Assembly: GCF_005406125.1 (NCBI RefSeq)
Contig: NZ_BIXZ01000012.1
Span: 1 to 64,000, forward strand
Length of the DNA stretch: 64,000 bases
Origin: Haloarcula mannanilytica
Lineage (GTDB): Archaea > Halobacteriota > Halobacteria > Halobacteriales > Haloarculaceae
Reading direction: 5' to 3'
Part shown: positions 5,393-61,777 of the stretch, in pieces
Numbering within the stretch: the first letter of the stretch is position 1
Layout: every line of letters begins with the position of its first letter
Notes under the pieces: generated by a model
Told to the model about the DNA's origin: nothing
Database searches by the model: none
Seen by the model: only the letters and a program-made list of their open reading frames with translations
Made by a program: the position numbers and the translations under genes

Positions 5393-7246
5393 TTAGCTTT
5401 CTTGGTCCCGTGCAACCTCGGAAAGGGCATTCGACACTCGTCCATCAACGGTGATACTCGGACGCTGGGCTGTATCTCGGTACCCGTACTCCGTAAGCCG
5501 GTTGCGGTTCAAGCAGATTTTCTTGAACGACGGGGCCAGCAAATCACACTCCTCGAAACGATCGGTCAGTTCGGGGAAGCGCGTCTGGTAGGCGATGATA
5601 CGCTCTCGTACCTGCCGCCAGAATCTGTCCTCGTCGTAACCGTGTTGCCGTGCAACGAGATCCGCGAGATAGCGGAACACGCAGACGAAGAGGCTAGCGA
5701 CGAGACACTGTCGCATCCGGGACAGCGGTTTCGTCACGAGAGCGTCCCAGCATTCCGGTGAGAACGGTGACTGCTCTGGCCGGGGTGTTTCAGTCAATGT
5801 TAGGTCGATAAAATCTTTGACGCCGGCCCGAACAGGGAGGCCGTCTTCGATGACAATGATGGCGTCCTCACCGTGGGGAGAGAAGCCGACCCCGTACTGG
5901 TAGAGGAAGTGCAACAGTGGCGGGAGCAGGACGTCGAAAAGGTCACCGAGCCACTGGTCAACACCTACGCCGGCCGCCGCTGCAAACTCTCCGAGCATCG
6001 TCGTTCCTTCGTGCTCGTAAAGCAAAGCTGATAGTGGGATCGCCTGCTCGCTTTCGTTTATACATTCTGTGATACTTTCGCGCCAGATGGCACATAGCAT
6101 TTCTTGGTACTGGTAGGGTGTGCCGTCGATCTCGTCGTAGACTGGATGGTCGTAGTCGATACTCGCGACCTCGCCCGGGAGCAGAAACTCGTGTTCGTCT
6201 GCGAGGAACGAGTCTCCGTTGCGGATTTTCCAGAGTGCGTCGGTGACTTGTGGGGCGAGGCGGACACGTTCGCCCGGGATGCCCCGATAGATCAGTGTGT
6301 TCAACATTCGAAGGGGCAGTTTGACGTCGTGGGCAGCGGGGTCGGTCGTATTCACGAGTGTTCGGACCGACTGTAAGGGCTGGTAGACCGGTGGTCCCGC
6401 TTCGAGAGGTACGAGCCTGTCGGCGGCTATCTCGTCTGCGAAGAAGGTCGCGACCGTGTTGTGCCACTGCCACTCGTGGACCGGGAGGAGCCGGTAATTT
6501 TCAGGATCGAATCCCCGTTCGGTGAGCATCTCGCCGAATCGTCCGGCCCGTCGGGTCCCGAGTTCCGAACTGACGAACGACTCGTAATCTGTTCCGCTCA
6601 CAGTCTCTGCAGTCGTTTGTGTCCGTCGTGCAGCCAGCCAGTACAGGCGGAGCGATGGTTGTTGCTCCGGTGCATACCGATGGTGATCCTCGTACCCGAA
6701 TCCCAGACGACCCTTGCTGTACGTAATCCAAGGGTGGCCATCGAGTTCGGCGTCCAGATTAGCGTAGCTCAGCTCGGTCGGATTCGGCGGGGACTCTCGG
6801 TTCTCACGCCGTGTTCGGACGTGCGCGTCGACCAACAGCGTGTTGACGTGTTCGCGGATCAACTTGCTCACGGTCATCCCCTCAATGTCGAGATTGCTCC
6901 CTAATTCCCGGAGAAAGCGGACGGCGTCAACGGCGAGTACCCACTCCTCGCCTGCTACCGACCGTTCGACGGATGCCGGGTCGACGTAGTAGCTGTCGAA
7001 CCGTCGCGGTGTCGCCTCGAATCGGTACGTAGTTTCGCCGACAACCAGCCGGTACTGTACTCGCCCGTCGCTCGCCCATATTGGTTCTGGAGCGAGTAAC
7101 CCCTCGTACAGCAACTCCGCGATGGCTTTGGCGACCATCTCGCGGTTTACCGTTTCCCAGGTGTCGCCGTCGACAGCTTCCCTGATGGCCGCCAGTGTCG
7201 CCGGCCCACGCGTCTGACCGTGGCTGCCGGGCAACTGTTCAGTCAT
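5393..7246 (-). CDS. IucA/IucC-type (NRPS-independent) siderophore synthetase, distal copy
   Basis: A 617-residue enzyme of the NIS synthetase family, which uses ATP to join a carboxylate such as citrate to amines or hydroxylamines in siderophore assembly. Family features are LLPVHEWQWHNTVATFF, the SVRTLVNTTDPAAHDVKLPL phosphate-binding region, MLNTLIYRGI and GVGFSPHGEDAIIVIEDGLPVRAGVKDF. SPHGED stands where most relatives have EAHxQN. The start at 7246 is chosen over 7261 because GGAGG lies 7 bases upstream and it gives an 8-bp overlap with the previous gene, implying coupled translation. It is the last gene of the leftward iron operon. Confidence 0.88.
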   Translation of the reverse strand: MTEQLPGSHGQTRGPATLAAIREAVDGDTWETVNREMVAKAIAELLYEGLLAPEPIWASDGRVQYRLVVGETTYRFEATPRRFDSYYVDPASVERSVAGEEWVLAVDAVRFLRELGSNLDIEGMTVSKLIREHVNTLLVDAHVRTRRENRESPPNPTELSYANLDAELDGHPWITYSKGRLGFGYEDHHRYAPEQQPSLRLYWLAARRTQTTAETVSGTDYESFVSSELGTRRAGRFGEMLTERGFDPENYRLLPVHEWQWHNTVATFFADEIAADRLVPLEAGPPVYQPLQSVRTLVNTTDPAAHDVKLPLRMLNTLIYRGIPGERVRLAPQVTDALWKIRNGDSFLADEHEFLLPGEVASIDYDHPVYDEIDGTPYQYQEMLCAIWRESITECINESEQAIPLSALLYEHEGTTMLGEFAAAAGVGVDQWLGDLFDVLLPPLLHFLYQYGVGFSPHGEDAIIVIEDGLPVRAGVKDFIDLTLTETPRPEQSPFSPECWDALVTKPLSRMRQCLVASLFVCVFRYLADLVARQHGYDEDRFWRQVRERIIAYQTRFPELTDRFEECDLLAPSFKKICLNRNRLTEYGYRDTAQRPSITVDGRVSNALSEVARDQES

Positions 7247-9005
7247 GGCTTGCCTCCGCAACGAGCGGATTGGTGACGGGCGTGTAGACCGCTTGTCGAT
7301 TCAGGCGGTCAGCGGACTCGTCGAAGTCACGGAACCGGGTTAGCAGGTTTCCTTTCCGTGCGATTCGGGGTTTAGTAATTAGCGCCGAGACGAACTCCGA
7401 GTGGTCATCCTCTATTCGTTGGAGGTCTCTGAGACGGTCACGCAACGCGGCCAGCAGATCGGCTTCGTCGGCGACACCGCCGGTACCGAGTGCGTCGACG
7501 ACGCCGAAGACATTGTTGACGAACAGTTGGTATCGGAGCCGCTCGTCGGCGACAGTATCGGGATACACAGTGCCAAAGCGGTCACGGAACTTAGGGGCGT
7601 AGGATATTATCTGTTCGGCCTTCGATTCGGTGGCGTAGTAGCCCTGATTATCCCGGTGGTAGTAGTGGTCTGGGAAGCCCGCATCGAGTCCGAGCACGAC
7701 GTTCTGCTGGTGGGCTTCGATAGCGAGGCCGTGCTGGAGATACAGCCAGGCCACCGGTTCAACCACGACGTCGAGATATCTCCGGAACCATTCCTTTGCG
7801 ACGGCTCTAACCGGTCGCCCAGTCGCCTCGGCGATCGCACTGACGTGGCGACCCAGCTGGGTTCCATTCCCGTCGGACACGTCCTGACAGAGCGCCACGA
7901 TCGGTGCTACACCGCTCGCGCCGCCACGGAAGGGATTCTCCCGAAGAAGTACCTCAAACCCGGATTCGTCGCCCTCATTGGTATCGACGGTGAGAAAGGC
8001 AGGGTCGCCGACCAGCGAAAAGGAAGGGTATCTCTCCGTGAGTTCCTCACCGAGTTCGCCCCTGAACAAGTCGACAGCAGCGATTCCTCGCACGAGTTCG
8101 TCCCGTTTGTTCGTGCGGACGGAATTGGTGATGGCGACTGCCAGAGAGCATTTGACCATGAACTCCGCGGCCGGGTGATACAGCGTCCGGACAGAGGTGG
8201 TGGGGTAGAACTCCTGACCAACTAAGCCGAGGTCGCGAAGTGTTCCGGTGTCGAGGAGCCGTTGTACGCGAGGGCTTTCACGCAGCCGGGCGGCCTGCCA
8301 GGGATGGACCGGAAGGAGCACGTCCTCACTCTCGACGTGTTCCGCCACGAACTCCTCACTGACCGTTGGGTCTTGGCGGAGCAGGTCCCGTACAAGATCC
8401 GGCGCCGACCGCTCAACCGCGGAGTCGGACCAGACGAGTCTCGGCTTGGCCCGGAAGTAGGCCAGCGAGACCGATCCGCCGAGTTCGGGCACGTACGCGT
8501 CGGCTTGGCCCGGCGAAAACCCGACACGACTCTTGGGTGAGGGGTGCATCTGGTGGCCGAACAGTAGCGACTGCTCAGCCTCATGGAACGACCACTCTCC
8601 AACATGGTCGGGTAGACCACCGTCGCGGGCTTCGAGGGACCGTTCGATATTTCGATAGCTCTCTAAACTCCGTCGGAGGACTGCTGTACGGTTGTCCTCC
8701 TCATCGCGTAGCTGTCCGAGCTCTTCGAGTAGCAGAGAGAGACAGGCAGGTAGTGTGAGGGGTCGGAATTCACCGTCACCGAGCTTATACTGTCCTGGCA
8801 AGCGGTAGCGGTGGCGACCGACCTTTGATCGGTGCCTAAGTTCCAGACGGATTTCTCCATTTCTCTGCCCGAGCGGTACACGGATAGTCGGTATGTCATC
8901 GGCTTTTTCTGACCCAACACTCAGTTGGTATGCGTTGGTTTCACGGATATAGCAGTTGAGAAACGACTGAAGTGTCGCCTCTCGGGCACGGGGTTCCGGC
9001 TCCAT
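7239..9005 (-). CDS. IucA/IucC-type (NRPS-independent) siderophore synthetase, proximal copy
   Basis: A 588-residue NIS synthetase. Clear motifs are LLPVHPWQAARL near residue 205, YPTTSVRTLYHPAAEFMVKCSLAVAITNSVRTNK (nucleotide site) and the catalytic-core LYLQHGLAIEAHQQNVVLGL near residue 430. It is only distantly similar to the downstream copy, so the two probably make the two successive amide bonds of one siderophore. The ATG follows the decarboxylase stop with no gap, and its own stop overlaps the next start, so the three genes form one transcript led by the iron-responsive promoter at 10.69 kb. Confidence 0.9.
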   Translation of the reverse strand: MEPEPRAREATLQSFLNCYIRETNAYQLSVGSEKADDIPTIRVPLGQRNGEIRLELRHRSKVGRHRYRLPGQYKLGDGEFRPLTLPACLSLLLEELGQLRDEEDNRTAVLRRSLESYRNIERSLEARDGGLPDHVGEWSFHEAEQSLLFGHQMHPSPKSRVGFSPGQADAYVPELGGSVSLAYFRAKPRLVWSDSAVERSAPDLVRDLLRQDPTVSEEFVAEHVESEDVLLPVHPWQAARLRESPRVQRLLDTGTLRDLGLVGQEFYPTTSVRTLYHPAAEFMVKCSLAVAITNSVRTNKRDELVRGIAAVDLFRGELGEELTERYPSFSLVGDPAFLTVDTNEGDESGFEVLLRENPFRGGASGVAPIVALCQDVSDGNGTQLGRHVSAIAEATGRPVRAVAKEWFRRYLDVVVEPVAWLYLQHGLAIEAHQQNVVLGLDAGFPDHYYHRDNQGYYATESKAEQIISYAPKFRDRFGTVYPDTVADERLRYQLFVNNVFGVVDALGTGGVADEADLLAALRDRLRDLQRIEDDHSEFVSALITKPRIARKGNLLTRFRDFDESADRLNRQAVYTPVTNPLVAEASHD

Positions 9006-10538
9006 CTATGCACTCCCAGCCACGCTTGTGTTTTCGGCACGTTCGCCGTGTTTGGCGAGAGTATCGAGAATCAAAGCGATGTCATCCTGCGTCGTTTTGG
9101 GGTTCATGAATGTGAACTTCAAGCAGGGTGTCCCTTCGACGATGGTTCGGGCGACAATCGCATCGCCCGCCTTCCTGGCTCGGTCACGTATTTCGTTAGT
9201 CAGCTCGCTGTGCCACCGCTTTTCCTCGACATTAGACGGGAACACGGATGGCCGATAGCGGAACAGAACGGTCGTCAGTTCGGGTTCGGTGACGAGCTTG
9301 AAAGCGGACCGCGAACGGATCTGCTGGGCGGCCACCGACGCCAGATTGGCCGTCCGTTCGACGCAGGCGGCGACACCGGAGGTGCCGACAGCCTGGAATG
9401 TCAGAAACGGCTTCAACACGTCGAACCGGCGTGTTGTCTGGACCGACTTCGAGACTGGGGTCGGCGCATCCGTGTCCGCCGGATTCAGGTACGACGCGTT
9501 ACGACCCGTGTACTCGTAGTTTGTCTCGTCACGGACCAGGATAGCGCCGCAACTGACTGGCTGATAAAACAGCTTGTGGAAGTCGACAGTCAACGAGTCA
9601 GCCCGTTTGATACCCGCGAGCCTGTCGGCATGCCGGTCGCTGAAGGCCAGTGCACCACCCGAGGCCGCATCCACGTGATACCACATATCGTATCGGTCCG
9701 CACGATCGGCTAGGCCATCGAGGGGATCGATCGAGCCAAAGTCAGTCGTGCCGGCAGTCGCGACCAGCGCCGCCAGTTCGCCGCCGGAGGATTCGATCTT
9801 TGCGAGGGTCTCATCAAGCGCGTCTAAATCCATCCGGTGGCGGTTGTCAGTCGGGACTCCAACCACGGCGTTCTCGCCCAGTCCCAAGTGCGAGGCTGCC
9901 TGTGCGACCGAGAAATGGGCGGCTTCAGAACAGAGTATTCGGAGGTCACCTGCCGCTTCTGGTACGCCGGCAGATTGTGCGTCCACGCCGTGGTTGACGT
10001 CGAGGTGTCGGTTTCTAGCCAACAGAAGCGCCGCGAAGTTCGACTGTGTCCCGCCGCTCGTGAACACACCATCCGCGGTATCGGGAAACCCGTAGACCTT
10101 CGCCAACTGGTTGACGAACCGCTGTTCGAGGACCGTCCCGGAGGGACTTTCACCCCACGTATCGAGGGACTGGTTTGACGCTGCCAGCAGTAACTCCGCT
10201 GCGATACCCGGTATCGACGGCGGACACTGGAGGTGTGCAACGTATTGCGGGTCGTGAAACCCGACCGCATTCGAAAGGAGTTGCTCTCCGACTCTCTCAA
10301 TCGCGCTCTCGAGTCCTGTGCCGGTTTCGGGCAGACAGTCGATGTCGGCGAGTTCGGACCGCACTTCCGAAATCGACGCGCCAGTGTACGGCGTTGCAGC
10401 CGGGAGATACGACTCGCGAATCGCGCAGCAAGCAGTTTCGACAGCGGCTTCGAACGTTTCCAGCGTGTCGCTGTCATTCCCGAGGAACATCGACTCCGGA
10501 ACTGCGCTCCCCGACGGAGGGAACTCCGTATCACTCAT
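9006..10538 (-). CDS. PLP-dependent (group II) decarboxylase, diaminobutyrate- or glutamate-type
   Basis: A 510-residue decarboxylase of the aromatic-amino-acid/glutamate/diaminobutyrate group. Landmarks are FTSGGTQSNFAALLLARN, SEAAHFSVAQAA, ALVATAGTTDFGSIDPLDGLA, MWYHVDAASGGAL and the PLP lysine in LTVDFHKLFYQPVSCGAILV. In known siderophore clusters this enzyme supplies a diamine (1,3-diaminopropane from 2,4-diaminobutyrate); that role is inferred here from its two NIS synthetase neighbours. The start at 10538 has GGAGG 7 bases upstream. An in-frame ATG at 10685 would add 49 residues rich in Arg and Cys and is less likely. Neither diaminobutyrate aminotransferase nor monooxygenase or acetyltransferase genes are adjacent. 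Confidence 0.85.
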   Translation of the reverse strand: MSDTEFPPSGSAVPESMFLGNDSDTLETFEAAVETACCAIRESYLPAATPYTGASISEVRSELADIDCLPETGTGLESAIERVGEQLLSNAVGFHDPQYVAHLQCPPSIPGIAAELLLAASNQSLDTWGESPSGTVLEQRFVNQLAKVYGFPDTADGVFTSGGTQSNFAALLLARNRHLDVNHGVDAQSAGVPEAAGDLRILCSEAAHFSVAQAASHLGLGENAVVGVPTDNRHRMDLDALDETLAKIESSGGELAALVATAGTTDFGSIDPLDGLADRADRYDMWYHVDAASGGALAFSDRHADRLAGIKRADSLTVDFHKLFYQPVSCGAILVRDETNYEYTGRNASYLNPADTDAPTPVSKSVQTTRRFDVLKPFLTFQAVGTSGVAACVERTANLASVAAQQIRSRSAFKLVTEPELTTVLFRYRPSVFPSNVEEKRWHSELTNEIRDRARKAGDAIVARTIVEGTPCLKFTFMNPKTTQDDIALILDTLAKHGERAENTSVAGSA

Positions 10539-10681
10539 TTTGACCCTCCAGGGGGAACCGACAAAATTGGGCCATCTGTCACAGGAACTTGCCGAACAGC
10601 ATCTGTCTCCTCTATATCTGTCACGCACCGACTTTTCGGTCGCTCTCGATTCATAGGTTCTAATTGATTTACCTCTGTCAT
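10535..10681 (-). CDS. Possible 48-residue small protein leading the siderophore operon
   Basis: Between the iron operator and the decarboxylase lies an ATG-initiated frame of 48 codons beginning MTEVNQLEPMNRERPKS and ending SVPPGGSK, acidic in its first half. Its TGA overlaps the decarboxylase ATG (ATGA), typical of coupled archaeal genes. The ATG is 7 bases from the operator, so the message would be nearly leaderless. I recognise no domain. It could be a real small protein, a leader peptide coupling translation, or chance. Confidence 0.4.
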   Translation of the reverse strand: MTEVNQLEPMNRERPKSRCVTDIEETDAVRQVPVTDGPILSVPPGGSK

Positions 10682-10687
10682 ACATAT

Positions 10688-10701
10688 TTAGGTTGGCCTA
10701 A
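10688..10701 (-). promoter_or_regulatory. DtxR/IdeR-like iron operator of the siderophore biosynthesis operon
   Basis: TTAGGTTGGCCTAA, a near-perfect 14-bp palindrome (TTAGG-N4-CCTAA), sits just upstream of the leftward operon. TTAGG...CCTAA half-sites are typical of DtxR-family metalloregulators (SirR/Idr in haloarchaea). Matching copies are at 10782 and 12213. With iron the repressor should block transcription. Confidence 0.7.
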
Positions 10702-10781
10702 ATGATTGTTAATATTTGCGAACTGAGTGAATTGCTAGAATTATTCGCTAGATTTACGATTATATTGTAACCTATAACCTT

Positions 10782-10795
10782 TTAGGGTAGCCAAA
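10782..10795 (+). promoter_or_regulatory. Second DtxR-like operator, before the glutamine-synthetase-like gene
   Basis: TTAGGGTAGCCAAA matches the TTAGG-N4-CCTAA palindrome with one change in the right half-site. It follows a TATA-like CCTATAACC and lies about 33 bases before the start codon at 10828, a position that would cover the transcription start. Its presence ties the ligase gene to the iron regulon. Confidence 0.55.
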
Positions 10796-10827
10796 ACTTA
10801 AAGTGTCTCTGCAACGCCACCCTTTCC

Positions 10828-12177
10828 ATGTGCCAGACACCTTCGGAATTGTTAGAACGTTGTTCAACTGAGGACATCTCATTTGTTCGTCTCCTCTACG
10901 TTGGAAATGACGGCATTACCCGCGGACAGACAATAAATAAAAGTGAACTGTCTGAAGCGCTCGAAGCTGGTATAAGCCTCCCCACATCAGTCCAGTCGCT
11001 TGCACCACCAGACGACAGAGTCGTCGGGGGGCAGTACGATACAGTAGGTGAGGTTCGATTGATCCCACAGCCACGGACGTTCCGGATACTTCCATACGAA
11101 GCTGAGACGGCTGCGATGGCGTGTTCAATAGAGACCCTCAATGGCAATCCGTGGACGGCCGACCCGCGCTCGGCGCTATTGGCGTATCTTTCGGACCTCG
11201 ACGACAGGGGGTACGAGGCTGTGACTGCCTTCGAGTCGGAGTTTCACCTCATGACGGAGACAGAAGACGGTTTCAAACCCCATGACGACCGCGGCGTCTA
11301 CACGACAAATAGTGCGCGGGACGCGAGTCATGTTATCCACGATATTATAAGCGCATTGGAGGCACAATCTATCCCAGTCAAAAAATACTATCCCGAACAC
11401 GGAGCCGGGAAACACGAGGTCGTCACTGGCCACGCCACCGGTATTGATGCGGTCGACGACCACGTGTTTCACACTGAAACGGTCCAAGCTATCGCCGATG
11501 CACACGGACTGCTGGCCACGTTCCTCCCCAAACCGGTTCCTGGCGCGACCAACGGGTTGCACCTCCACCTGTCGTTATGGGACGATGGGAACGCCTTCCA
11601 CGACGAAAGTGTGGACGGCCCCTATCCGCTTTCCCGAACGGCCAAACAGTTTATCGGGGGTATCTTGGCGCACGCAGACGCACTCACAGCCCTGACCGCT
11701 CCCGCCGTGAACTCCTATGCGCGTCTAGCTCCGCGCCAGGAGTCGTGTGCATACGCGTGCTGGGGCCATGACAACAGGGAGGCCATGGTGCGTGTTCCGT
11801 CATCCAGCTCCAGCGATGAGAGCGGAACGACACGGCTTGAGTTCCGTGCCGCCGACGCAGCCGCGAACCCCTATCTGGCATTGCTCGGCCTGCTTGCAGC
11901 TGGCGTCGACGGTATCGAGCAGGGAATCGACCCCGGTGATCCCGTACAAACCGGACCGGACGCACTCTCGGATGATCAGCGCCACCGGCGCGGAGTTGAG
12001 CGATTGCCAACAACACTCGGCGAAGCAGTCCGTGCACTCGAAGCTGACAACACACTCCGTGCAGCACTCGGGGAGGAACTGGCGTCGTCGTACCTGGAGA
12101 GTCGTCGGTCAGCCTGGGAGGCCTTTACCGAATCCGCTGGAGAGTGGAACAGGGATATTCTTCGACGATTGCTATGA
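10828..12177 (+). CDS. Glutamine-synthetase-like ATP-dependent ligase (GlnA3/PuuA-like) in the iron locus
   Basis: A 449-residue member of the glutamine synthetase superfamily. Catalytic-site motifs are FESEFHLM (residue 133 area), EHGAGKHEV, NGLHLHLSLW, NSYARLAPRQESCAYACWG, NREAMVRVPSSS and RLEFRAADAAANPYLALL. The substrate-binding segments differ from true glutamine synthetase (for instance EHGAGKHE for EGGPGQYE), so it more likely joins an amine to a carboxylate, as gamma-glutamylpolyamine synthetases do. Divergent from the siderophore operon and carrying its own operator, it could add an amine or amino acid to the siderophore. That role is inference. Confidence 0.8.
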   Translation: MCQTPSELLERCSTEDISFVRLLYVGNDGITRGQTINKSELSEALEAGISLPTSVQSLAPPDDRVVGGQYDTVGEVRLIPQPRTFRILPYEAETAAMACSIETLNGNPWTADPRSALLAYLSDLDDRGYEAVTAFESEFHLMTETEDGFKPHDDRGVYTTNSARDASHVIHDIISALEAQSIPVKKYYPEHGAGKHEVVTGHATGIDAVDDHVFHTETVQAIADAHGLLATFLPKPVPGATNGLHLHLSLWDDGNAFHDESVDGPYPLSRTAKQFIGGILAHADALTALTAPAVNSYARLAPRQESCAYACWGHDNREAMVRVPSSSSSDESGTTRLEFRAADAAANPYLALLGLLAAGVDGIEQGIDPGDPVQTGPDALSDDQRHRRGVERLPTTLGEAVRALEADNTLRAALGEELASSYLESRRSAWEAFTESAGEWNRDILRRLL

Positions 12178-12212
12178 GTTAGGGGCACCAAAAACCAAAA
12201 CGCTTTTAATAT

Positions 12213-12226
12213 TTAGGGCGGCCTAA
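12213..12226 (+). promoter_or_regulatory. Third DtxR-like operator, overlapping the binding-protein promoter
   Basis: TTAGGGCGGCCTAA is a TTAGG-N4-CCTAA palindrome directly after a TATA-like TTTTAATA and 4 bases before the ATG at 12231. The geometry implies a leaderless transcript and repression by blocking the start site. Confidence 0.7.
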
Positions 12227-12230
12227 AAAA

Positions 12231-13385
12231 ATGATGACTGAAAATTCAATTACAGAGACAACGAGGCGTAAGATCTTACAAGCGAGTGTCGGTACTGCGG
12301 GTGCACTGGGGATAGCTGGGTGTCAATCCGGTTCGAAGGATACCACGACTGCCTCCAGCTCGTACACGGTGTCGATGGAACCGGTCGGAGAGGTATCGTT
12401 CGAATCGGTCCCCGACCGCTGGATGAGCTACTACAGCACGTTCGGAGATATGGGAATCGCCCTCGGTCAGCTCGAAAGCCTTGCCGGGCTGTTTTTCGTA
12501 GACAATTGGCCGACGGCGTTCTACGACCAGCTTCCCGGTGTCGAAGTCTCCTTTGAGGACGTCGAAAAGATAGAGATGGGCGACGGTATCGATCGAGAAG
12601 TGTTCTACGAGCTGAACTCTGACGTCCACCTGATGGACCCTAACATGCTGAGCTGGATTGACGACAACTGGTCCCAGTCCGACATCGACGATATCCGTAG
12701 TGATGTTGGCCCTTTCGTCGGAAACCACATTCGCCGACGCGGGTACGAGTGGCACGATTACGAGTACTACTCGCTGTACGAGGCCTTCGAGGTGGTGGCC
12801 GAGGTATTCCAAGAACGTGATCGGTACAGTATAATAAGTGAAGTTCATGATCAACTTCTCACAGACTTGCAGGAGGATCTCCCCTCGGAAGAAGATCGTC
12901 CGTCGGCCGGCTTCCTCTCTGTCAACTCCGATTTCGAGAACGGAACCTTCTACGCCTACCCTCTTGGCGAGGGCAACGGCAAAAAACAGTACCATGACCT
13001 CGGTATCGATGATGCCTTCGAAGCGTATATCGATGGATCGTTCGCTGAGTGGGACTACGAGCAGTTGTTGACGGCTGATCCGGATGCACTCGTGTTCCTG
13101 TATGGTTTCTCGAACGCGAGTACCGAAGGGTTCGAAGACAAGGTTGAGCGGATGCGAGATGACCCGGTTGGCAGTCAACTGACTGCCGTCGAAAACGACA
13201 GGCTCCATCGCGGCGGCACCGAGTACCAGGGACCGATAATCAACCTCTTCCAGACAGAGGCTGCGGCAAAGCAGCTCTACCCCGACCAGTTCGGCGCGTG
13301 GAACGGCCTCAACGAATCTCTGCCTGAGAACGACCGTCTGTTTGATTACCAGCGTGTTGCCGACGTGATCAATGGCGAATCCTAA
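12231..13385 (+). CDS. Exported iron-siderophore-binding lipoprotein of an ABC importer
   Basis: A 384-residue solute-binding protein of the FepB/FhuD class III fold. The N-terminus carries a twin-arginine signal (TTRRKILQASVG) and a lipobox LGIAGC with Cys near residue 34, so it is exported folded and lipid-anchored outside the membrane. Downstream are GEVSFESVPDRWMSYYSTFGDMGIALG, an early binding-lobe segment, and DPDALVFLYG in the linker/second-lobe region. No permease or ATPase gene is adjacent, so it must use an importer encoded elsewhere. The tight operator at 12213 makes it iron-repressed. A second in-frame ATG at 12234 is equally possible. Confidence 0.85.
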   Translation: MMTENSITETTRRKILQASVGTAGALGIAGCQSGSKDTTTASSSYTVSMEPVGEVSFESVPDRWMSYYSTFGDMGIALGQLESLAGLFFVDNWPTAFYDQLPGVEVSFEDVEKIEMGDGIDREVFYELNSDVHLMDPNMLSWIDDNWSQSDIDDIRSDVGPFVGNHIRRRGYEWHDYEYYSLYEAFEVVAEVFQERDRYSIISEVHDQLLTDLQEDLPSEEDRPSAGFLSVNSDFENGTFYAYPLGEGNGKKQYHDLGIDDAFEAYIDGSFAEWDYEQLLTADPDALVFLYGFSNASTEGFEDKVERMRDDPVGSQLTAVENDRLHRGGTEYQGPIINLFQTEAAAKQLYPDQFGAWNGLNESLPENDRLFDYQRVADVINGES

Positions 13386-41479: not shown

Positions 41480-43156
41480 CTATCCGATTCCGGTCTCCTT
41501 CTTCAGCAGCGTAAGCGTATTGTCGGCCGTCACAATGGGTGAGTGTTCGTACTCACCCGTCAACTCGACTTGGACGAGCAAATCGACCACTCGCCAAATC
41601 GAGTACAACAAACAGGCGAACGCGAAGTAGAAGAATCGCAGCCCGAAATCCGTCGATGTCGTCGCAGCCATGAACCGCTTAATCGATCGATAGCCACTCT
41701 CGATCTCCCACCGGTGCCCATACTCGCTGAGGAGTCCACCGCCACGGTTGGACATGAACACTGAGTACTGCCGGTGATCATCGTGTTCAGAGTTCTCTTT
41801 GCGTCGGTAGATCAGCGTCGTCTCGTGCCACTCGTTCTTCCCGAGATGGAGTTTGCGGTCGGTCTCGTACCGATCTTGATCCCGCTTGAGCAACCGCTTG
41901 GCCTGGGCTTTCTCGCTCGTCTGCATCCGCTTCGGCACGACGTATGAAAGCCCACGCTGGCTGATCATCTCTAGAATGTGCTGGCTGTCGAACTCCCGAT
42001 CCATCAGGACATTATCGACGTGAACGAGGTCCTCAGCGGAGTCGAGTAGATCTTCAACGATTTCCTTACGTGACTCGCCTTTCCGTACCGGGCGGGCATC
42101 AAGGACGAGCGGGACAGCGTTGCCGACCAGCTGGACTGTCGCCCACTGGTAGGCGTATTCGTCGTTCTTCTCCTTCGTTCCGATAATCTCGTCTTCGTGT
42201 CCCGTCCTATCGCCGGTAAAGGGATCGTCCTCAGTGACGTCGATGGCGACAATACCCGCTCGGAAGAACTCCTCTGTCTCCGCGAGCTTGTTGATGAGCT
42301 GTCGGAGTGCCTGTCGGTACATCTCGCGGATCTGCTTGATGGAGAGATCGCGTATCTGGTCGCGATGACTGTGCCCGAGTGGTGTTCGATCACGCGTCGA
42401 TTCGTGAATGAAACTCCGAGCGCCCTCGTTAGCCGCCAAGTTCTCTCGCAGGCCTAGATAGGTCTGTAAGTCCCAGTAAGCGTGTTCGTGGATTTTACAC
42501 CCCTCGCCACGGTCCAGCGAGAACGCTGGGTAGACGGTTCGGCTGACCTCTTCGGCGACGTCCTCTGTCCGGTCGAGGACGGTCTGATCGTCAAGGTCTG
42601 TCACCTCATCATCGGTATCACGGAGTAGATGGCTGGTGTCGGGTTCGCGGGGAACGGAAAGGCCTGCTTGGGACGCTTTGATCAGGATCGTCCGGGCGGC
42701 CGTCTGCACCGTTTCCCGGAGGTCGGCACTGAAGCGCTTGTTCCAGCTGCGCCACAGCGTCGACTGGTCGGGAACTGTCTGTAAGTCTAATCGCTGACGT
42801 AGGTCGGGATGTGTCTCGAGGTGCGTGACGAGAGAGGTCTCGTGCGCCCAGCCGTGAAGGGCTTTGATCAGGAACGCCCGGAACAACTGCTCTATCTCAT
42901 ACCGTGTATGGCCAGCGTAGCGGTCGTGAGCATCGAACTCGACGTAGGCCAGCGGCCAGTGACAGACGAATTCCTCGACGGACTCGTGCGCCTCGTGGTC
43001 GAACCAGACGCTTGCGAGGACGTGCACATCTTCGGCGAGCCCGCCTGTCGAACTGTGGTCGTACAGCGGCGTGTCCGTATAGGCGGGCCAAGCGTAGAAG
43101 GAGTTCTGTGCGATACGTCGAAAGACAGCGCGACGCGAGGAGGGTGTGCTTACCAT
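41480..43156 (-). CDS. DDE transposase of a second large insertion-sequence type, intact copy
   Basis: A 558-residue transposase. It has an N-terminal region typical of this family (RRIAQNSFYAWPAYTDTPLYDHSS), LRQRLDLQTVPDQSTLWRSWNKRF, the first Asp in AGIVAIDVTEDDPF, NVLMDREFDSQHILEMIS and YGHRWEIESGYRSIKRFMAATTS, then LRFFYFAFACLLYSIWRVVDLL. The order and final motif place it with IS4-like DDE transposases. A related, broken copy in the same orientation is at 50425-52090. The two bracket the redox island. Confidence 0.85.
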   Translation of the reverse strand: MVSTPSSRRAVFRRIAQNSFYAWPAYTDTPLYDHSSTGGLAEDVHVLASVWFDHEAHESVEEFVCHWPLAYVEFDAHDRYAGHTRYEIEQLFRAFLIKALHGWAHETSLVTHLETHPDLRQRLDLQTVPDQSTLWRSWNKRFSADLRETVQTAARTILIKASQAGLSVPREPDTSHLLRDTDDEVTDLDDQTVLDRTEDVAEEVSRTVYPAFSLDRGEGCKIHEHAYWDLQTYLGLRENLAANEGARSFIHESTRDRTPLGHSHRDQIRDLSIKQIREMYRQALRQLINKLAETEEFFRAGIVAIDVTEDDPFTGDRTGHEDEIIGTKEKNDEYAYQWATVQLVGNAVPLVLDARPVRKGESRKEIVEDLLDSAEDLVHVDNVLMDREFDSQHILEMISQRGLSYVVPKRMQTSEKAQAKRLLKRDQDRYETDRKLHLGKNEWHETTLIYRRKENSEHDDHRQYSVFMSNRGGGLLSEYGHRWEIESGYRSIKRFMAATTSTDFGLRFFYFAFACLLYSIWRVVDLLVQVELTGEYEHSPIVTADNTLTLLKKETGIG

Positions 43157-50424: not shown

Positions 50425-52090
50425 AATTCCCGTTTCCTTCTTCAACAGCGTCAGCGTGTTATCAGCCGTCACAATTGCGAGTGCTCGTACTCACCGGTCA
50501 ACTCAACCTGCACGAGCAAATCCACTGCTCGCCAGATCGAGTACAACAGACACGCGAATGCGAAGTAGAAGAACCGGAGGCCAAAGTCCTTCGAGGTCGT
50601 GGCGGCCATGAATCGCTTAATCGACCTGTACCCACTCTCGATCTCCCAGCGATAGCCGTACTCAGTGAGGAAGCCACTACCGCGATTGGACATGAATACC
50701 GAGTACTGCCGGTGATCATCATGTTCAGCGTCTTCCTTCCGTCGGTAGATCAGCGTTGTCTCGTGCCACTCGTTCTTCCCGAGATGGAGCTTGCGTTCGG
50801 TCTCGTACCGGCTTTGATCACGTCGGAGTAACCGCTTTGCCTGGGCTTTCTCACTGGTTTGCATCCGCTTCGGCACGACGTACGACAGCCCGCGCTGGCT
50901 AATCATCTCTAGAATATGCTGGCTGTCAAACTCGCGGTCCATCAGCACGTTATCGACGTGAACGAGGTCCTCGGCAGAGTTGAGCAAGTCTTCGACGATT
51001 TCTAGTCGTGTCTCTCCCTTTCGGATCGGGCGCGCATCCAGCACGATTGGAACGGCGTTGCCGACCAACTGGACCGTCGCCCACTGGTAAGCGTATTCAT
51101 CGGTTTTCTCCTTCGTGCCGATGATTTCGTCTTCGTGTCCGGTTCTGTCGCCTTTGAACGGGTCTGCTTCAGTAATATCGATAGCGGCGATCCCAGCTCG
51201 GAAAAACTCCTCTGTCTCTGCAACTTCATCGAGTAATCGATTTACGGCTCGCCGGTACATCTCTCGGACCTGTTCAATCGAGAGATTACGAATCTGATCG
51301 CGGTGGGCGTGTCCTAACGGCGTCCGATTCCGGGTCGTCTCATAGACGAAGCTGCGGGCTCCTTCGTTGGCAGCCAGCCCATCACGAAGCCCAAGATGCG
51401 TTTGTAAGTCCCAGTAGGCGTTCTCATGGATCTCACAGCCGTCGTCCCGGTTCAGTGAGAAGGCTGGGAAGACGACACGGCTGACATGGTCCGTAATCGA
51501 TGCTGCTTCGTCGAGGATTGCTTGGTCACCAGTGTCTGATTCTTCCTCGTCACGCTGAAAGGGAAGCTGCCGTTCTGGTTCACGCGGAACAGTCACACCC
51601 ACGTCCTGAGCTTTGATCAGAATCGTCCGGGCGGCTACCTCAATTGTCTCACGAAGATCCGCAGTGAACCGTTCGTGCCATGTACGCCATAGCGTCGACT
51701 GGTCCGGGACTGTCTCCAAGCCTAACTGCTCACAGAGTTCTGGGTGGTGGGTGAGGTACGTCCGGAGTGCCGTTTCGTGGGTCCAGCCGTGAAGTTCTTT
51801 CAGCAGAAACAATCGGAACAGTTGGGCCATCCCGTACTGGGTTGCTCCAGAATACCGGTCGTGTGGTCGAAACTGGAAATACGCTACTGGGTAATGGGAC
51901 GCAAACTCGTCGACGGAGTGTGAGCTTGGTGGTCGACCCATGTGGAGGCAACCGTACGGATGTCTTCTTCCAGGCCGGCGAGAGAACTCCTGTCATAGAG
52001 TGGCGTCGAATCATATGATGGCCATTCCGCGTATGACTGCTGTGCGATTCGTCGAAAGACAGTGCGTTGTGAATCACAACTCGCAACCAC
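50425..52090 (-). pseudogene. DDE transposase, frameshifted copy related to 41480-43156
   Basis: The frame begins GTG at 52090 (VASCDSQRTVFRRIAQQSYAEWPSYDSTPLYDRSS), shifts near 51930, then runs 51941-50469 through VPDQSTLWRTWHERFTADL, AGIAAIDITEADPF, NVLMDREFDSQHILEMIS and YRWEIESGYRSIKRF. It shifts again at about 50475, where the last 20 codons (VTADNTLTLLKKETGIG) lie in another frame. It differs from the intact copy at many synonymous and some amino-acid positions, so the two are not a fresh duplication. Confidence 0.85.
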
Positions 52091-54480: not shown

Positions 54481-54858
54481 CTAACTAAACCCTGCCATTG
54501 TCCCACGCACAAGATACTCAACTATGCCCAACACGAGGATGATTCCGAGCGGTACAAACCACCATCCAAAAAAGAGTGGTGCCGGACTATCCACAATTGC
54601 GGTATAATCTCTCCAAAGTACATTACCGGTCATTAATATAGCGGATAGTAGAGGAAGCACTAGAGAATATCTTAAAAGTAGGTATATAGGAATAGCCAGC
54701 AACAGAATACTTCCAACCGCCATCCACGGGGCCCAAAGACCAAGTCTCCTTACTGTGGTCTGTCTTAGGAGCCGGCTCATACTGAGTATCATTGTGAGTG
54801 AACCACCAACTAAAGCCAGTGCAATTTGAGTTCTACTTGATAGATTTTGGCCAATCAT
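54481..54858 (-). CDS. Membrane protein near the halocin-like gene
   Basis: A 125-residue protein with four hydrophobic segments (IALALVGGSLTMILSMSRLL, WMAVGSILLLAIPIYLLL, LVLPLLSAILMTGNVLW, GWWFVPLGIILVLGIVEYLV). Its last codons and stop lie in the duplicated IS6 end, so the native C-terminus may be lost. Same strand as the two exported proteins upstream. It could serve in export or immunity of the halocin-like peptide, which is inference from position. Confidence 0.5.
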   Translation of the reverse strand: MIGQNLSSRTQIALALVGGSLTMILSMSRLLRQTTVRRLGLWAPWMAVGSILLLAIPIYLLLRYSLVLPLLSAILMTGNVLWRDYTAIVDSPAPLFFGWWFVPLGIILVLGIVEYLVRGTMAGFS

Positions 54859-54925: not shown

Positions 54926-55828
54926 CTAATAGACTGCTCCAATCCAGCCGTCGTGGGTATCCCACTTTGTGTACCCAGTATTGATTGTGCTATCATCTGT
55001 CTCGTATCCCCAGTCATTCCAATCTGAAAGGGCTTCACTTCTGGCCGAATCAAATTGCCACGGCTTGTTACCTATCTGATTGTGATCATATGGATCCTTA
55101 TGTGCTTGTCCAATAACTGCGACCTCATTCTCGTCTACATCCCAGACGCGGATGTGCCACTGCTTAGATTTGTCTATTTCCTTATATATGTGTTCTTCTT
55201 CCACTTTTGCATTCCCATCGTACATAATATAACGACTTTTCGAAGGAGGGACATACCATGGGTGTGTCCACCCCCTCTCATGCATGTAAGAATAGACATC
55301 ATCTGCACTATTATCGACGGAATCAGACCAAATAATATTGATAGGTGCTTTTCTTTTTCCCAAGTCTTCTGCTTCCTCTGCAGTTTTATATACGAATTTG
55401 GGACCCTCATAATCATCTGGGGCGTCTCCGCTTCCAAAAGTCCCGACTACATCAACACCAATTTGTTTCTCCGCGATAGTATGTTGCCTGTTCGTCCCGA
55501 ACACACTTACTTCGTCTACTTTCTCTTCTATTGTTTTGTTTTGTTCTGTTATCTCATTGGGTAAAGCCTTACGAGGAATATTTTCAGGAGCTAATTGTAT
55601 TGATTTGGTCCCATACGCCTCTTTGAGGTCTTGACTGACTACAGTTTCAACATACTGATAATACGATCCATTGGACCTAAAAGTATGTATTGTGGTCCCA
55701 TCTGCGTGTACTAACTCATCATCGTGTTTATCCGTTTTTGCTCCTCCAATTCCTGATAGTAGGGTAGTCAGCGTCAGGCCGCCTGCAATCGTTTTCAATA
55801 CATCCCTTCTGTTATTATGCTCAGTCAT
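54926..55828 (-). CDS. Large exported protein with twin-arginine signal, function unknown
   Basis: A 300-residue protein with signal RRDVLKTIAGGLTLTTLLSG (twin arginine) and a cleavage site near residue 30. The mature part is rich in Trp and Tyr near the end (HERGWTHPWYVPPSKSRYIMY, WDTHDGWIGAVY). No domain recognised. It starts 10 bases after the stop of the halocin-like gene, so both are one operon. Confidence 0.65.
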   Translation of the reverse strand: MTEHNNRRDVLKTIAGGLTLTTLLSGIGGAKTDKHDDELVHADGTTIHTFRSNGSYYQYVETVVSQDLKEAYGTKSIQLAPENIPRKALPNEITEQNKTIEEKVDEVSVFGTNRQHTIAEKQIGVDVVGTFGSGDAPDDYEGPKFVYKTAEEAEDLGKRKAPINIIWSDSVDNSADDVYSYMHERGWTHPWYVPPSKSRYIMYDGNAKVEEEHIYKEIDKSKQWHIRVWDVDENEVAVIGQAHKDPYDHNQIGNKPWQFDSARSEALSDWNDWGYETDDSTINTGYTKWDTHDGWIGAVY

Positions 55829-55838
55829 TTCTAATATA

Positions 55839-56588
55839 TTATTGCGGACAGTATCCGATTATTTGACACACTGCTCTTGGGGTTTCATCCTCTCCACAAC
55901 TGTTATCCGATACGTAATCGCAGACTTCGCCAGCTATTGCCGCACAAATACTACTTCCAACGGCAACTGACACGTATGTACAAAGTGCTGAGAGCCCATA
56001 ATCGCAGCCAATATCGCATGCTGCCCCATATAGGACCTTACAGGGATTGCAATACTGAGTAGCTACGGAGCTTGGGCTAAGGTTTTGCGCCTCTTTATCA
56101 GTCTTGTCAATCTTCTTTGATTCTGTAGTTACCTCCCTATCTTCATAACTTAATGCTTCAACTTCAGTCAACACATTACTATCGTCAGGCTCATATCTGA
56201 TTGACCCCTTAGACTTAATTACCGATAGGTCAGAATTTAACAAAAAGGCCATATCAGCACTGACAATTGTCCGTCCTTTCTTCTTTTGTGGGTCAATACA
56301 ATCGGGCTTGAATGATGTTAGAATTTTCTCCTCCCCATCTTTTTTTGTTTTAATTGCGCGACTATTACTATCAGATATTTTTATCGCATCTCTGGAGTTG
56401 AGCTCTTGCTTTATTTCACTATATTGTACTGAAGATACTACTTCTTCGATGGCCTTTCTTTCCTTATCGGATTCTAACTTCTCAGTTTCCAACGCAGCCG
56501 CTGATGTTGATAAACCAGTTGATGCGATGGTACCGCTACTCATCATTTTTAATATATTTCGTCTTGTCTTTTCCATCTGCAGTGTCAT
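55839..56588 (-). CDS. Halocin C8-like precursor (microhalocin)
   Basis: A 249-residue precursor. The twin-arginine signal KTRRNILKMMSSG is followed by a polar middle of about 145 residues and a C-terminal cysteine-rich segment of about 70 residues with ten Cys: CNPC, AAC, IGC, LC, IC, EVC, SC, VC and the final C. The number and order match the mature halocin C8 peptide (Cys-x-x-Cys start, then GC, IC, C). In halocin C8 the middle part is the immunity protein HalI, released from the same precursor. Export is by Tat; the target would be other haloarchaea. The exact cleavage point is not visible. Confidence 0.72.
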   Translation of the reverse strand: MTLQMEKTRRNILKMMSSGTIASTGLSTSAAALETEKLESDKERKAIEEVVSSVQYSEIKQELNSRDAIKISDSNSRAIKTKKDGEEKILTSFKPDCIDPQKKKGRTIVSADMAFLLNSDLSVIKSKGSIRYEPDDSNVLTEVEALSYEDREVTTESKKIDKTDKEAQNLSPSSVATQYCNPCKVLYGAACDIGCDYGLSALCTYVSVAVGSSICAAIAGEVCDYVSDNSCGEDETPRAVCQIIGYCPQ

Positions 56589-57755: not shown

Positions 57756-58680
57756 TCAATTTCGCAGGTGAGACAGGCGAGTCCACCGTCGTCGAGTTAC
57801 AGAGGCGGAAAGCGGTCCCACTCCAAGACAGATATTAACTACGTCAGCCCCGATTACGACGGCATAGCCTAGCGCATGCAGCGTATCAGCGATGGTTATT
57901 TGTTTCACAGAGTAGTAATCGCTGAATTGCTTATAGAACATTGTCCGAAGTGGGACAATCGTTGCATCGGGTGCAGTGCCAATAATTCCGGAGTCGGTAC
58001 CACCGGCAGCGGCAATCCCAGCAACATGGGTGCAATGCTCCTCAATATCGATCCCGGCCAGTCGGTTGACCGTATCCCTTCCCAACTCTCCCTCTTTACG
58101 GAATGTAACAGGGATCTACACGGTGTGACTATGGCCGTTTCGGAACAATCAGCCACCGCCTACGACATCGCCACTGGTGACTGCTCCATATCGAGCCTCG
58201 CTTCAAGATCTGGATGGAATGGACTGATACCAGTGTCAATGACCGCAAGTGTGGTCCCGTCACCAGTGGCGATGTCGTAGGGGTAAATGTATTTGTCAGT
58301 TTCTTGTCTCACTGCAGTTCAAACATTGGCATTGCATCAGAGACAGACTCCTTCGTCTTCTGTGTGGGATCACCGACCTCGAAGATCTGGTTTGCAACAG
58401 TATCATTGACCGCGGGAAGTGACTCGAGATCCCTATCGCTGTCTGCCGGCCCCACAACTAGGACGAGTGAGCCCCCTGCCAGTTCCTGCAGTAGTCTATA
58501 CCCCTTACTCGCAAGTTGGTCGCTTAGTCCTTCCCCACCGCAATGACAATATACACTTTTTCGTTATCGGCCATCGACTGGTCATCTGCAAGTCCAGTCC
58601 CAGCAGTCCCTATGGTGGCACTACCTGCGGCAATGCTACCAAGAAATGATTGTCTCGTGGAAATTATATCTGTTGACATT
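57756..58680 (-). pseudogene. Subtilisin-like exported protease, decayed
   Basis: From 58680 the minus strand reads MSTDIISTRQSFLGSIAAGSATIG (signal-like) to MADNEKVYIVIAVGKD, breaks, then YPYDIATGDGTTLAVIDTGISPFHPDLEA (the catalytic Asp motif), breaks again, and 58085-57756 reads EEHCTHVAGIAAAGGTDSGIIGTAPDATIVPLRT (His motif with HCTH for HGTH) to GADVVNICLG. The Ser motif is missing. A 23-bp inverted repeat disrupts it between the Asp and His parts. Confidence 0.75.
58159..58281. repeat. Perfect 23-bp inverted repeat inside the subtilase relic
   Basis: The arm at 58159-58181 (CCTACGACATCG...) and its exact complement at 58259-58281 (...CGATGTCGTAGG) flank 77 bases. Part of the protease coding sequence appears once in each direction, as produced by a template switch or a fold-back event. 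Confidence 0.75.
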
Positions 58681-58785
58681 ACGTGTGATTATTTGTATAA
58701 CTGTTGAAATATTCTTTCGAGTTGCGGTTTATGTGTAATTCAAATATAAAAGTAAATATCATATCGGTACATGAGTAGGAGTTGT

Positions 58786-59757
58786 ATGGACACAGATGTA
58801 GTAGATACCCTCCGGCAACCAGAATATACTGGAGAGAACCGGTGTGAGCCATGTACAGTCCTCAATCTAGCTATTGCAATGATACTTGGATCTGCTATCG
58901 CCCGTAAATCAAAATTGGGCGGGATCATTGGATTCGGTATCTCAGTCGGGTTGATCTATCTGCGCGGATATCTCGTGCCAGGAACCCCAACATTCACCAA
59001 GCGCTATCTCCCTGCAGAGGTACTCCGTTGGTTTGGGAAAGATCCGGAGCCTGAACTGGCTACGGGCTTTGCTGACATCAAGACTGGTAACAATGCGTCC
59101 CCCGATAATAAAGCAGCTGTTGAATCTACAGGAGGAATGAAAGCTGACGGGGAAATGGCTACTGACAACGTTCCAACCAACGGCCATGACACATCAGCTG
59201 ATGAACAGCCACCATCAGAGGAGGATCTTGAGTTATTCTTCACTAAACACGGAATACTCGAACCCTGTTCTGATTCAGATGATCTATGTCTAACAGACAC
59301 CTTTCAAACAGCTTGGCTAGACGAAATTGATTCACTGAATACGACAGAAATCACGGCATCATTAATTGCGGATACTATTGGGATCGAAACTGAGGACAGA
59401 GAGTTCGAACTTACTGAACAGGGCGAAGCCAGAATTTTACTGACCAATGACCAGACGGTCTCACAGTGGCCTTCCAAAGCAGCGCTTCTTGCGGATATCG
59501 CCGCCTGTCGCGTACTTCGGTCAGAGATCGCTGACTGGAGTAAATATAAGATTGAAAAGAAAGGACAGATTCTCAATTCTCTCCGAATGTTCATCGAAAC
59601 TTGCCCGACAACAGGCGGAGACATTCAGATGGGTGAAGAAATCGTGGAATCTTGCTGCAGTTCGCAGAAAGTGGTTACTGTCACCTGCGAGGAGTCCGGT
59701 GAACGCCTCTTCGAACATCCACTCCCGGAGAGTGATGTGGAGGAGCAACCGTCCTAG
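58786..59757 (+). CDS. Membrane-anchored protein of a halocin-associated type
   Basis: A 323-residue protein. The N-terminus DTLRQPEYTGENRCEPCTVLNLAIAMILGSAIA (Cys-x-x-Cys then a membrane helix) is a signature I recall from haloarchaeal proteins, some beside halocin genes. A second helix GGIIGFGISVGLIYLRGYLV follows, then a large soluble acidic part with SCCSSQKVVTVTCEESGERLFEHPLP near the end. The start at 58786 has AGGAG 6 bases upstream; an ATG at 58771 is less well placed. Function unknown; possibly maturation or immunity. Confidence 0.6.
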   Translation: MDTDVVDTLRQPEYTGENRCEPCTVLNLAIAMILGSAIARKSKLGGIIGFGISVGLIYLRGYLVPGTPTFTKRYLPAEVLRWFGKDPEPELATGFADIKTGNNASPDNKAAVESTGGMKADGEMATDNVPTNGHDTSADEQPPSEEDLELFFTKHGILEPCSDSDDLCLTDTFQTAWLDEIDSLNTTEITASLIADTIGIETEDREFELTEQGEARILLTNDQTVSQWPSKAALLADIAACRVLRSEIADWSKYKIEKKGQILNSLRMFIETCPTTGGDIQMGEEIVESCCSSQKVVTVTCEESGERLFEHPLPESDVEEQPS

Positions 59758-60808: not shown

Positions 60809-61777
60809 ATGTCAGACCATAGCTGGAATAGTGTAAATCGGCGGAAAGTTCTAAAAACGACAGCAGTTAGCCTTGGAGGCATTTCAGCCTTCACAGGAAT
60901 TACAACTGCAGATAATGACTCTGAACCCGCTCGTACAATAGAACTCCAAATCCCGGACACAGAAAACTCATCCACAAATATGGACACATCGGCGGCTAAG
61001 GATCTTACTTCGAGTAACCCAAGTGTAAAAGAAGTTGATACCGCCGTCGTTAAGTCTTCTGCAATTGATACTGTTCGTGTTGACCTCTACAACGATGAGA
61101 AAATTGAAGTTGGAGTCACCGGACCAAGATCAAAAGAAGCAGACTCATCGGCGATGATAGTTCGAGTTGATGCGCAGGATTCCAAAGGTCACTATAATCC
61201 AGATAGTGCAATAATTGAACTCAAAAACCCCAATAATAATGGTAAAAAACCCAATACCACACAAGTCGGAGGGGGATCATCCGAAGTAGAAACTCCCTCC
61301 GGTGGGACTACAATAAGCAAATCTGATTCTGAAGATAGTGATGACGGAACTGATTACACAAGTAATTATGGAGGTGGCATAATAGTGAGCGGGAACACAT
61401 CTGAGGGGAGTTGGTTTGATGACTGGTGTCGCCATGCTCAAACGGTTGAGTGGGAGGAGTCAAATGGAGAAGTTGACTGGGCAAGATATAATAAATGCTG
61501 GAAGACAGAATCCTATGGTTCTGGTTCTTGGGATGTGAAAGAACACAGGTGGCGCGATCGGAACTTTAGTGGTGACGATTATTATGCAGGATCAACGTCT
61601 ACCTTCGAAAAGTTTGAGTCAGGTGGAGAATGGACTTATACACTAAGATCCTCAATGACATGCAAACCCAATGGTGAAAACGATTGGTGGGGTTGGGGTC
61701 GGTGCTACGACTCTGACCGCCCAGAGTTTCGTTTTGATATGAAGACTGATTATGGCCCACCATGTGATAGTTGGTAA
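60809..61777 (+). CDS. Exported protein with twin-arginine signal and Cys/Trp-rich C-terminus
   Basis: A 322-residue protein. The signal NRRKVLKTTAVSLGGISAFTG is twin-arginine. The middle is Ser/Asn/Gly-rich and low-complexity (NPNNNGKKPNTTQVGGGSS, SDSEDSDDGTDYTS), then a Trp/Cys-rich domain (SWFDDWCRHAQTVEWEE, YNKCWKTESYGSGSWDVKEHRWRDRNF, CKPNGENDWWGWGRCYD) with 5 Cys. AT-rich with poor codon bias, so probably acquired. Secreted adhesin, toxin or bacteriocin-like factor are all possible. Confidence 0.65.
   Translation: MSDHSWNSVNRRKVLKTTAVSLGGISAFTGITTADNDSEPARTIELQIPDTENSSTNMDTSAAKDLTSSNPSVKEVDTAVVKSSAIDTVRVDLYNDEKIEVGVTGPRSKEADSSAMIVRVDAQDSKGHYNPDSAIIELKNPNNNGKKPNTTQVGGGSSEVETPSGGTTISKSDSEDSDDGTDYTSNYGGGIIVSGNTSEGSWFDDWCRHAQTVEWEESNGEVDWARYNKCWKTESYGSGSWDVKEHRWRDRNFSGDDYYAGSTSTFEKFESGGEWTYTLRSSMTCKPNGENDWWGWGRCYDSDRPEFRFDMKTDYGPPCDSW

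Follow-up and report, generated by a model that had tools for sequence, protein, structure and literature searches.

A divergent halocin C8-like precursor gene and an adjoining gene pair in Haloarcula mannanilytica

Gene content of the locus

Three genes lie in tandem on the minus strand of the window, the 64,000-nucleotide stretch of Haloarcula mannanilytica DNA analysed here (contig NZ_BIXZ01000012.1, positions 1 to 64,000). The first, at 55839..56588, encodes a halocin C8-like precursor. It is followed after 10 nt by a gene for a secreted protein of 300 aa with a Tat signal (54926..55828; junction read directly), and after a further 67 nt by a gene for a membrane protein of 125 aa, for which hydropathy indicates four helical spans (54481..54858). 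Judging by spacing alone, the halocin gene and the two genes that follow it are most likely co-transcribed. The three genes have a GC content of 42.0%, compared with 53.5% for the window, and form an AT-rich island. An earlier note on this sequence had proposed the precursor, but overlooked both the three-gene operon and the fact that a curated model already exists for the halocin C8-like family, which is widespread.

The precursor ORF lies exactly where the earlier note had placed it; the frame, read directly, has an ATG start and runs for 249 aa with no internal stop. The twin-arginine signal that had been proposed is found as KTRRNILK at residues 7-14 and lines up with the RR of the family. 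The signal region (residues ~1-32) is followed by a HalI-like middle (~33-166), a linker, and a C-terminal peptide with ten cysteines (~172-249), and it is between the signal motif and the ten-Cys segment that the polar middle region described from the sequence is located. In total there are eleven cysteines, of which one (C97) is in the middle and the other ten are C-terminal, at residues 180, 183, 191, 195, 203, 215, 223, 231, 241 and 247. The predicted mature peptide (55839..56075, minus strand), delimited by the linker and helices of an AF2 model, would have a mass of 8.0 kDa and a pI of 4.05 according to its composition, values that depend on an approximate N-terminal boundary. A genome-wide search with the TIGR04449 model found the precursor as a single copy.

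The surroundings contain several further features. Just upstream of the halocin gene is the remnant of a halolysin-like subtilase (57756-58700, minus strand), which has stops in all frames and Peptidase_S8 fragments with E 3.6e-9 and 1.6e-4. Halocin C8-type precursors require an extracellular protease, and the position of this remnant is therefore of note, even though the gene is dead. A plus-strand gene at 58771-59757 encodes a protein of 328 aa that has a CxPC motif in its N-terminal part, probable membrane spans and a cluster of Cys at the C-terminal end, to which no Pfam or NCBIfam name could be assigned. Homologues occur near 7 of 64 halocin loci (Poisson p 4e-4), and a role as a halocin-linked maturation factor was considered; however, the family is present in 358 of 391 haloarchaeal genomes, frequently with more than one copy per genome, and no link is claimed. 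Also on the plus strand, 60809-61777 encodes a protein of 322 aa that has a Tat signal and several Cys close to the C-terminus, and for which there was no NCBIfam or Pfam match. Elsewhere, two large siderophore synthetase-like ORFs (5393-13385) have decarboxylase-like, glutamine synthetase-like and binding-protein-like neighbours, assignments made by visual inspection of the translated sequences. Insertion sequences are abundant in the region, which contains two related transposase genes (50469-51941 and 41480-43156, minus strand), the first of which matches ISH3-type models weakly.

Membership of the halocin C8 family

The NCBIfam model of the halocin C8-like domain, TIGR04449, covers residues 180-247 over its full length with 31.5 bits (E 2.7e-7; 34.5 bits in the genome-wide search), above the curated cut-off of 24 bits. 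Within the family this ranks among the lower scores; locus L045 reaches 56.9 bits. The cysteine spacing of the precursor (2-7-3-7-11-7-7-9-5) is near-identical to that of the halocin C8 peptide (2-7-3-7-13-7-8-8-5). When aligned, the ten cysteines pair one-to-one with those of halocin C8 and of the family, in the order that the earlier note had recognised within the last ~70 residues. The note had also pointed to strong divergence outside the cysteines, which is borne out by an identity to halocin C8 of 16% over 62 aligned non-Cys positions of the mature part.

The Cys pattern alone is insufficient to explain the match. Against a C-terminal profile made from the other members, with the window left out, the precursor scored 39.1 bits. 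None of 1000 shuffles in which the cysteines were kept fixed reached this value (mean 7.6, maximum 25.7 bits), and full shuffles gave at most 9.4 bits. The AF2 model of the precursor (pLDDT 83, pTM 0.79) shows four helices in the ten-Cys part (175-193, 199-206, 212-228 and 237-243), preceded by a linker of low confidence and presumable flexibility (167-172); this model was built with the family alignment and hence cannot count as separate evidence for homology. A fold search of PDB at E 0.001, carried out with this model and with that of the 300-aa protein, gave no matches. Profile search of the C-terminal segment and structure prediction were the two computational checks that had been suggested, and the family assignment is supported by the curated model, the held-out profiles and the confident structure model.

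The ten-Cys segment opens with a CxxC pair, as might be seen in a zinc or Fe-S domain, and could in principle bind metal instead of forming a disulfide-bonded peptide. This is very improbable, given the Tat export signal, a spacing and non-Cys residues that fit the halocin C8 family and are unlike those of metal ribbons, and a Pfam search that found no metal-binding family.

TIGR04449 domains above the cut-off are found in 42 of 391 haloarchaeal genomes, in some of them in multiple copies. Thus, the family is widespread, and with the window gene it gains a very divergent new member, much as had been foreseen; the gene does not represent a new kind. In a tree of 27 family members its best match is ~25% identical, its branch is among the longest (terminal, 2.34 changes per site) and it has no supported sister. 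A family-level search with the full protein gave just two weak halocin-domain relatives, at 29% identity. No close relatives were found in the genome contigs searched, plasmid records gave no tblastn matches to the precursor, and the halocin C8 domain was absent from the sampled congeners.

A protein of the halocin C8 family that lacks antimicrobial activity, be it a secreted signal, a structural protein or a decaying import, might also show such a long terminal branch and unusual composition. The location in an AT-rich island within an IS-laden region, the lack of a counterpart in congeners and the pseudogene state of the adjacent halolysin-like gene would all be in keeping with this. Set against it are an intact frame, ten cysteines in register, a retained Tat motif, a confident fold and two following genes that are intact as well, and we consider a loss of activity unlikely. 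For so divergent a precursor, the intact reading frame is the sole sign of function. To our knowledge, few archaeal antimicrobials have been characterised so far, and the halocin C8 literature known to us deals mostly with close relatives of one peptide. A divergent member shows the reach of the family with the Cys frame kept, and can be used to test residues for activity versus immunity.

The HalI-like middle region

The middle region (residues 33-166; 56091..56492, minus strand) had been suggested to serve as a counterpart of HalI, the immunity part of halocin C8. A profile that was built from 31 other members over their middle regions, and that excluded the window, finds residues 33-158 with 26.5 bits (E 6.6e-7 in a search of every ORF from 20 loci), compared with a maximum of 10.2 bits for shuffled middle regions. 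When 168 non-family Tat-type proteins were compared with the same profile, the best score (13.0 bits) was that of a stand-alone HalI-like protein, and the next was 4.0 bits. The AF2 model predicts a helix-loop-helix (40-51 and 54-67; pLDDT ~97 in most of the block) followed by a six-strand sheet (71-161). A helix-loop-helix at the HalI N terminus is reported to be essential for its immunity function (Mei et al. 2008, doi 10.1128/JB.00665-08, as cited in PMC11509114).

By contrast, PF22862 (Hac8_like_N, the HalI-type N-terminal domain) does not match the precursor at E up to 1, and the gene was not listed by a genome-wide search with this model at E up to 10. PF22862 matches 16 of 27 halocin C8-like family members, and comparison of the middle with core PF22862-type members alone gave a weak match of 32 residues. 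The two are alike in precursor position and predicted topology, and are linked only via intermediate members. The suggested HalI counterpart thus holds with respect to family-level homology and the predicted helix-loop-helix, but not with respect to PF22862 or the core members: by profile comparison, the window middle is homologous to the middle regions of the family via intermediates, and lies outside the narrow Pfam family. A Pfam Toxin-deaminase match on the middle (E 0.027) was below the cut-off and was taken as chance.

In a class-wide search with the HalI-like region, where the window formed one row of the profile used, two genomes were found to carry the domain without a signal peptide or Cys domain (G342, 229 aa; G147, 146 aa). 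These proteins have PF22862 scores at or just below the cut-off. Their occurrence fits a self-contained immunity function and, together with the fusions to other Cys-rich C-termini described below, it would fit the wider picture of the HalI-like region as a self-contained immunity or leader domain that is common to several types of Cys-rich peptide.

The stand-alone HalI-like proteins without a Cys domain lie at L246:2089-2778, L250:2190-2630 and L037:8888-9460, two of them without a signal peptide, and are candidate orphan immunity proteins. Elsewhere the region is fused to other Cys-rich C-termini (L247:1894-2832, L248:2142-2948, L249:2055-2834, L251:2204-3178 and L252:1579-3645). TIGR04449 gave no match to the C-termini of L247-L249 and L251, and that of L252 looks alike by eye; possibly, these represent further microhalocin types. 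A much enlarged precursor is seen at L042:7500-9620 (G183), a secreted protein of 706 aa in which a long additional stretch at the N terminus precedes a HalI-like region and a C-terminus resembling halocin C8; L252 is similar.

The following gene pair and comparison with known systems

Members of the 300-aa protein family are found in 36 of 391 haloarchaeal genomes (~9%). Alignment of 23 members shows invariant Q223-H225-R227 and H243-D245-H249, residues that the structure model would place on two adjacent predicted strands and just after them. The protein belongs to no family in Pfam, NCBIfam, PADLOC or PHROG, has no sequence match in PDB, and its model has no fold match among viral structures at E 0.001. 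A likeness to LssY_C (PF14067) was not borne out by the Pfam search (a single hit at E 0.064 among 23 members, and none of 6 genomes above the cut-off).

Homologues of the 125-aa membrane protein adjoin four further 300-aa family members, and at L099 the membrane gene is present in tandem copies. More generally, 16 of 25 family members are followed within 260 nt by an ORF of 90-185 aa with at least three spans, compared with 7 of 158 other Tat proteins (Fisher p 9e-12, uncorrected for relatedness). The same two-gene order is found on plasmids of Natribaculum luteum (WP_246975258.1 / WP_246975260.1) and Halomontanus rarus (WP_276255805.1 / WP_276255806.1), where all four proteins are annotated as "hypothetical protein". 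Their secreted proteins are 36-41% identical to the 300-aa protein, with a gene of ~132 aa directly downstream; unlike in the window, no halocin gene lies in front. The pair of secreted and membrane protein thus recurs across haloarchaea and is undescribed, in that nothing in the family and fold searches matched it. An effector and its immunity protein would be expected to show just such an arrangement, in which the secreted protein has an invariant site of enzyme-like character and its membrane partner varies. The pair is probably a second secreted effector with its own membrane immunity protein, for which the 125-aa protein is the candidate. If so, this type of archaeal competition factor would be one that the family libraries used do not describe.

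The whole operon might be one system, in which the 300-aa and four-helix proteins act as halocin maturation, delivery or extra immunity factors, which would be needed since the HalI-like part has diverged and is no longer sufficient. The gap of only 10 nt between the first two genes is compatible with this, as is the occurrence of the 300-aa family in 13 of 47 genomes with a halocin C8 domain versus 23 of 344 without (Fisher p 6e-5), although this statistic is uncorrected for relatedness. In G025, G091 and G107, a family member is found 13-14 kb from a halocin gene. However, a 300-aa homologue is never the direct neighbour in the other halocin loci fetched, which makes the join in the window unusual. 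Most family members are far from any halocin gene, and halocin C8 itself is reported to work without such genes (Sun et al. 2005, doi 10.1111/j.1365-2958.2005.04705.x, as cited in PMC11509114). A single system thus seems to us rather unlikely, and an independent function of the pair more likely than a part in halocin C8 biology.

On balance, we favour as probable a precursor of the halocin C8 family that works by export, cleavage and self-protection, next to which an independent module has been joined. The precursor would be exported in folded form by the Tat route, and a putative extracellular protease would cut the linker near residues 167-176. This would release a C-terminal peptide of ~78 residues with ten cysteines, disulfide-stabilised and helical, with antimicrobial action against other haloarchaea. 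The HalI-like middle, with its helix-loop-helix, would bind the peptide and so shield the producer. Tat export, cleavage into HalI and peptide, and immunity are known for halocin C8 and may be transferred by homology to this protein, in which the ORF, the signal motif, the family match, the homology of both parts and the predicted fold are observed. For the divergent precursor, expression, processing and activity are our inference. The two following genes would form the independent secreted and membrane module, joined to the halocin gene here. More tentatively, and with some doubt on our part, the operon could be a two-weapon cassette that combines a halocin C8-type peptide with built-in immunity and an undescribed class of haloarchaeal Tat effector with membrane immunity. 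In such a cassette the effector would have a QxHxR...HxDxxxH site on a predicted beta hairpin, and its multi-pass immunity gene would sometimes be in tandem. The wider interest of the locus lies in the attached, undescribed gene pair.

The known system closest in kind is the halocin C8 precursor (ProC8 / HalC8) of Natrinema sp. AS7092, a near-identical sequence of which is present at L045 in G004. PMC11509114 describes it as a precursor of 283 aa that leaves the cell by the Tat route and on maturation gives rise to HalI and a peptide of 76 aa. Common to ProC8 and the window precursor are the Tat motif, the HalI-like middle and a C-terminal ten-Cys peptide with the cysteines in register, and both peptides are acidic (halocin C8 has a pI of 4.14). 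Identity over the full alignment is 21%, and the window peptide is less hydrophobic than that of halocin C8. Finally, ProC8 is a single gene, whereas the window precursor is part of a three-gene array.
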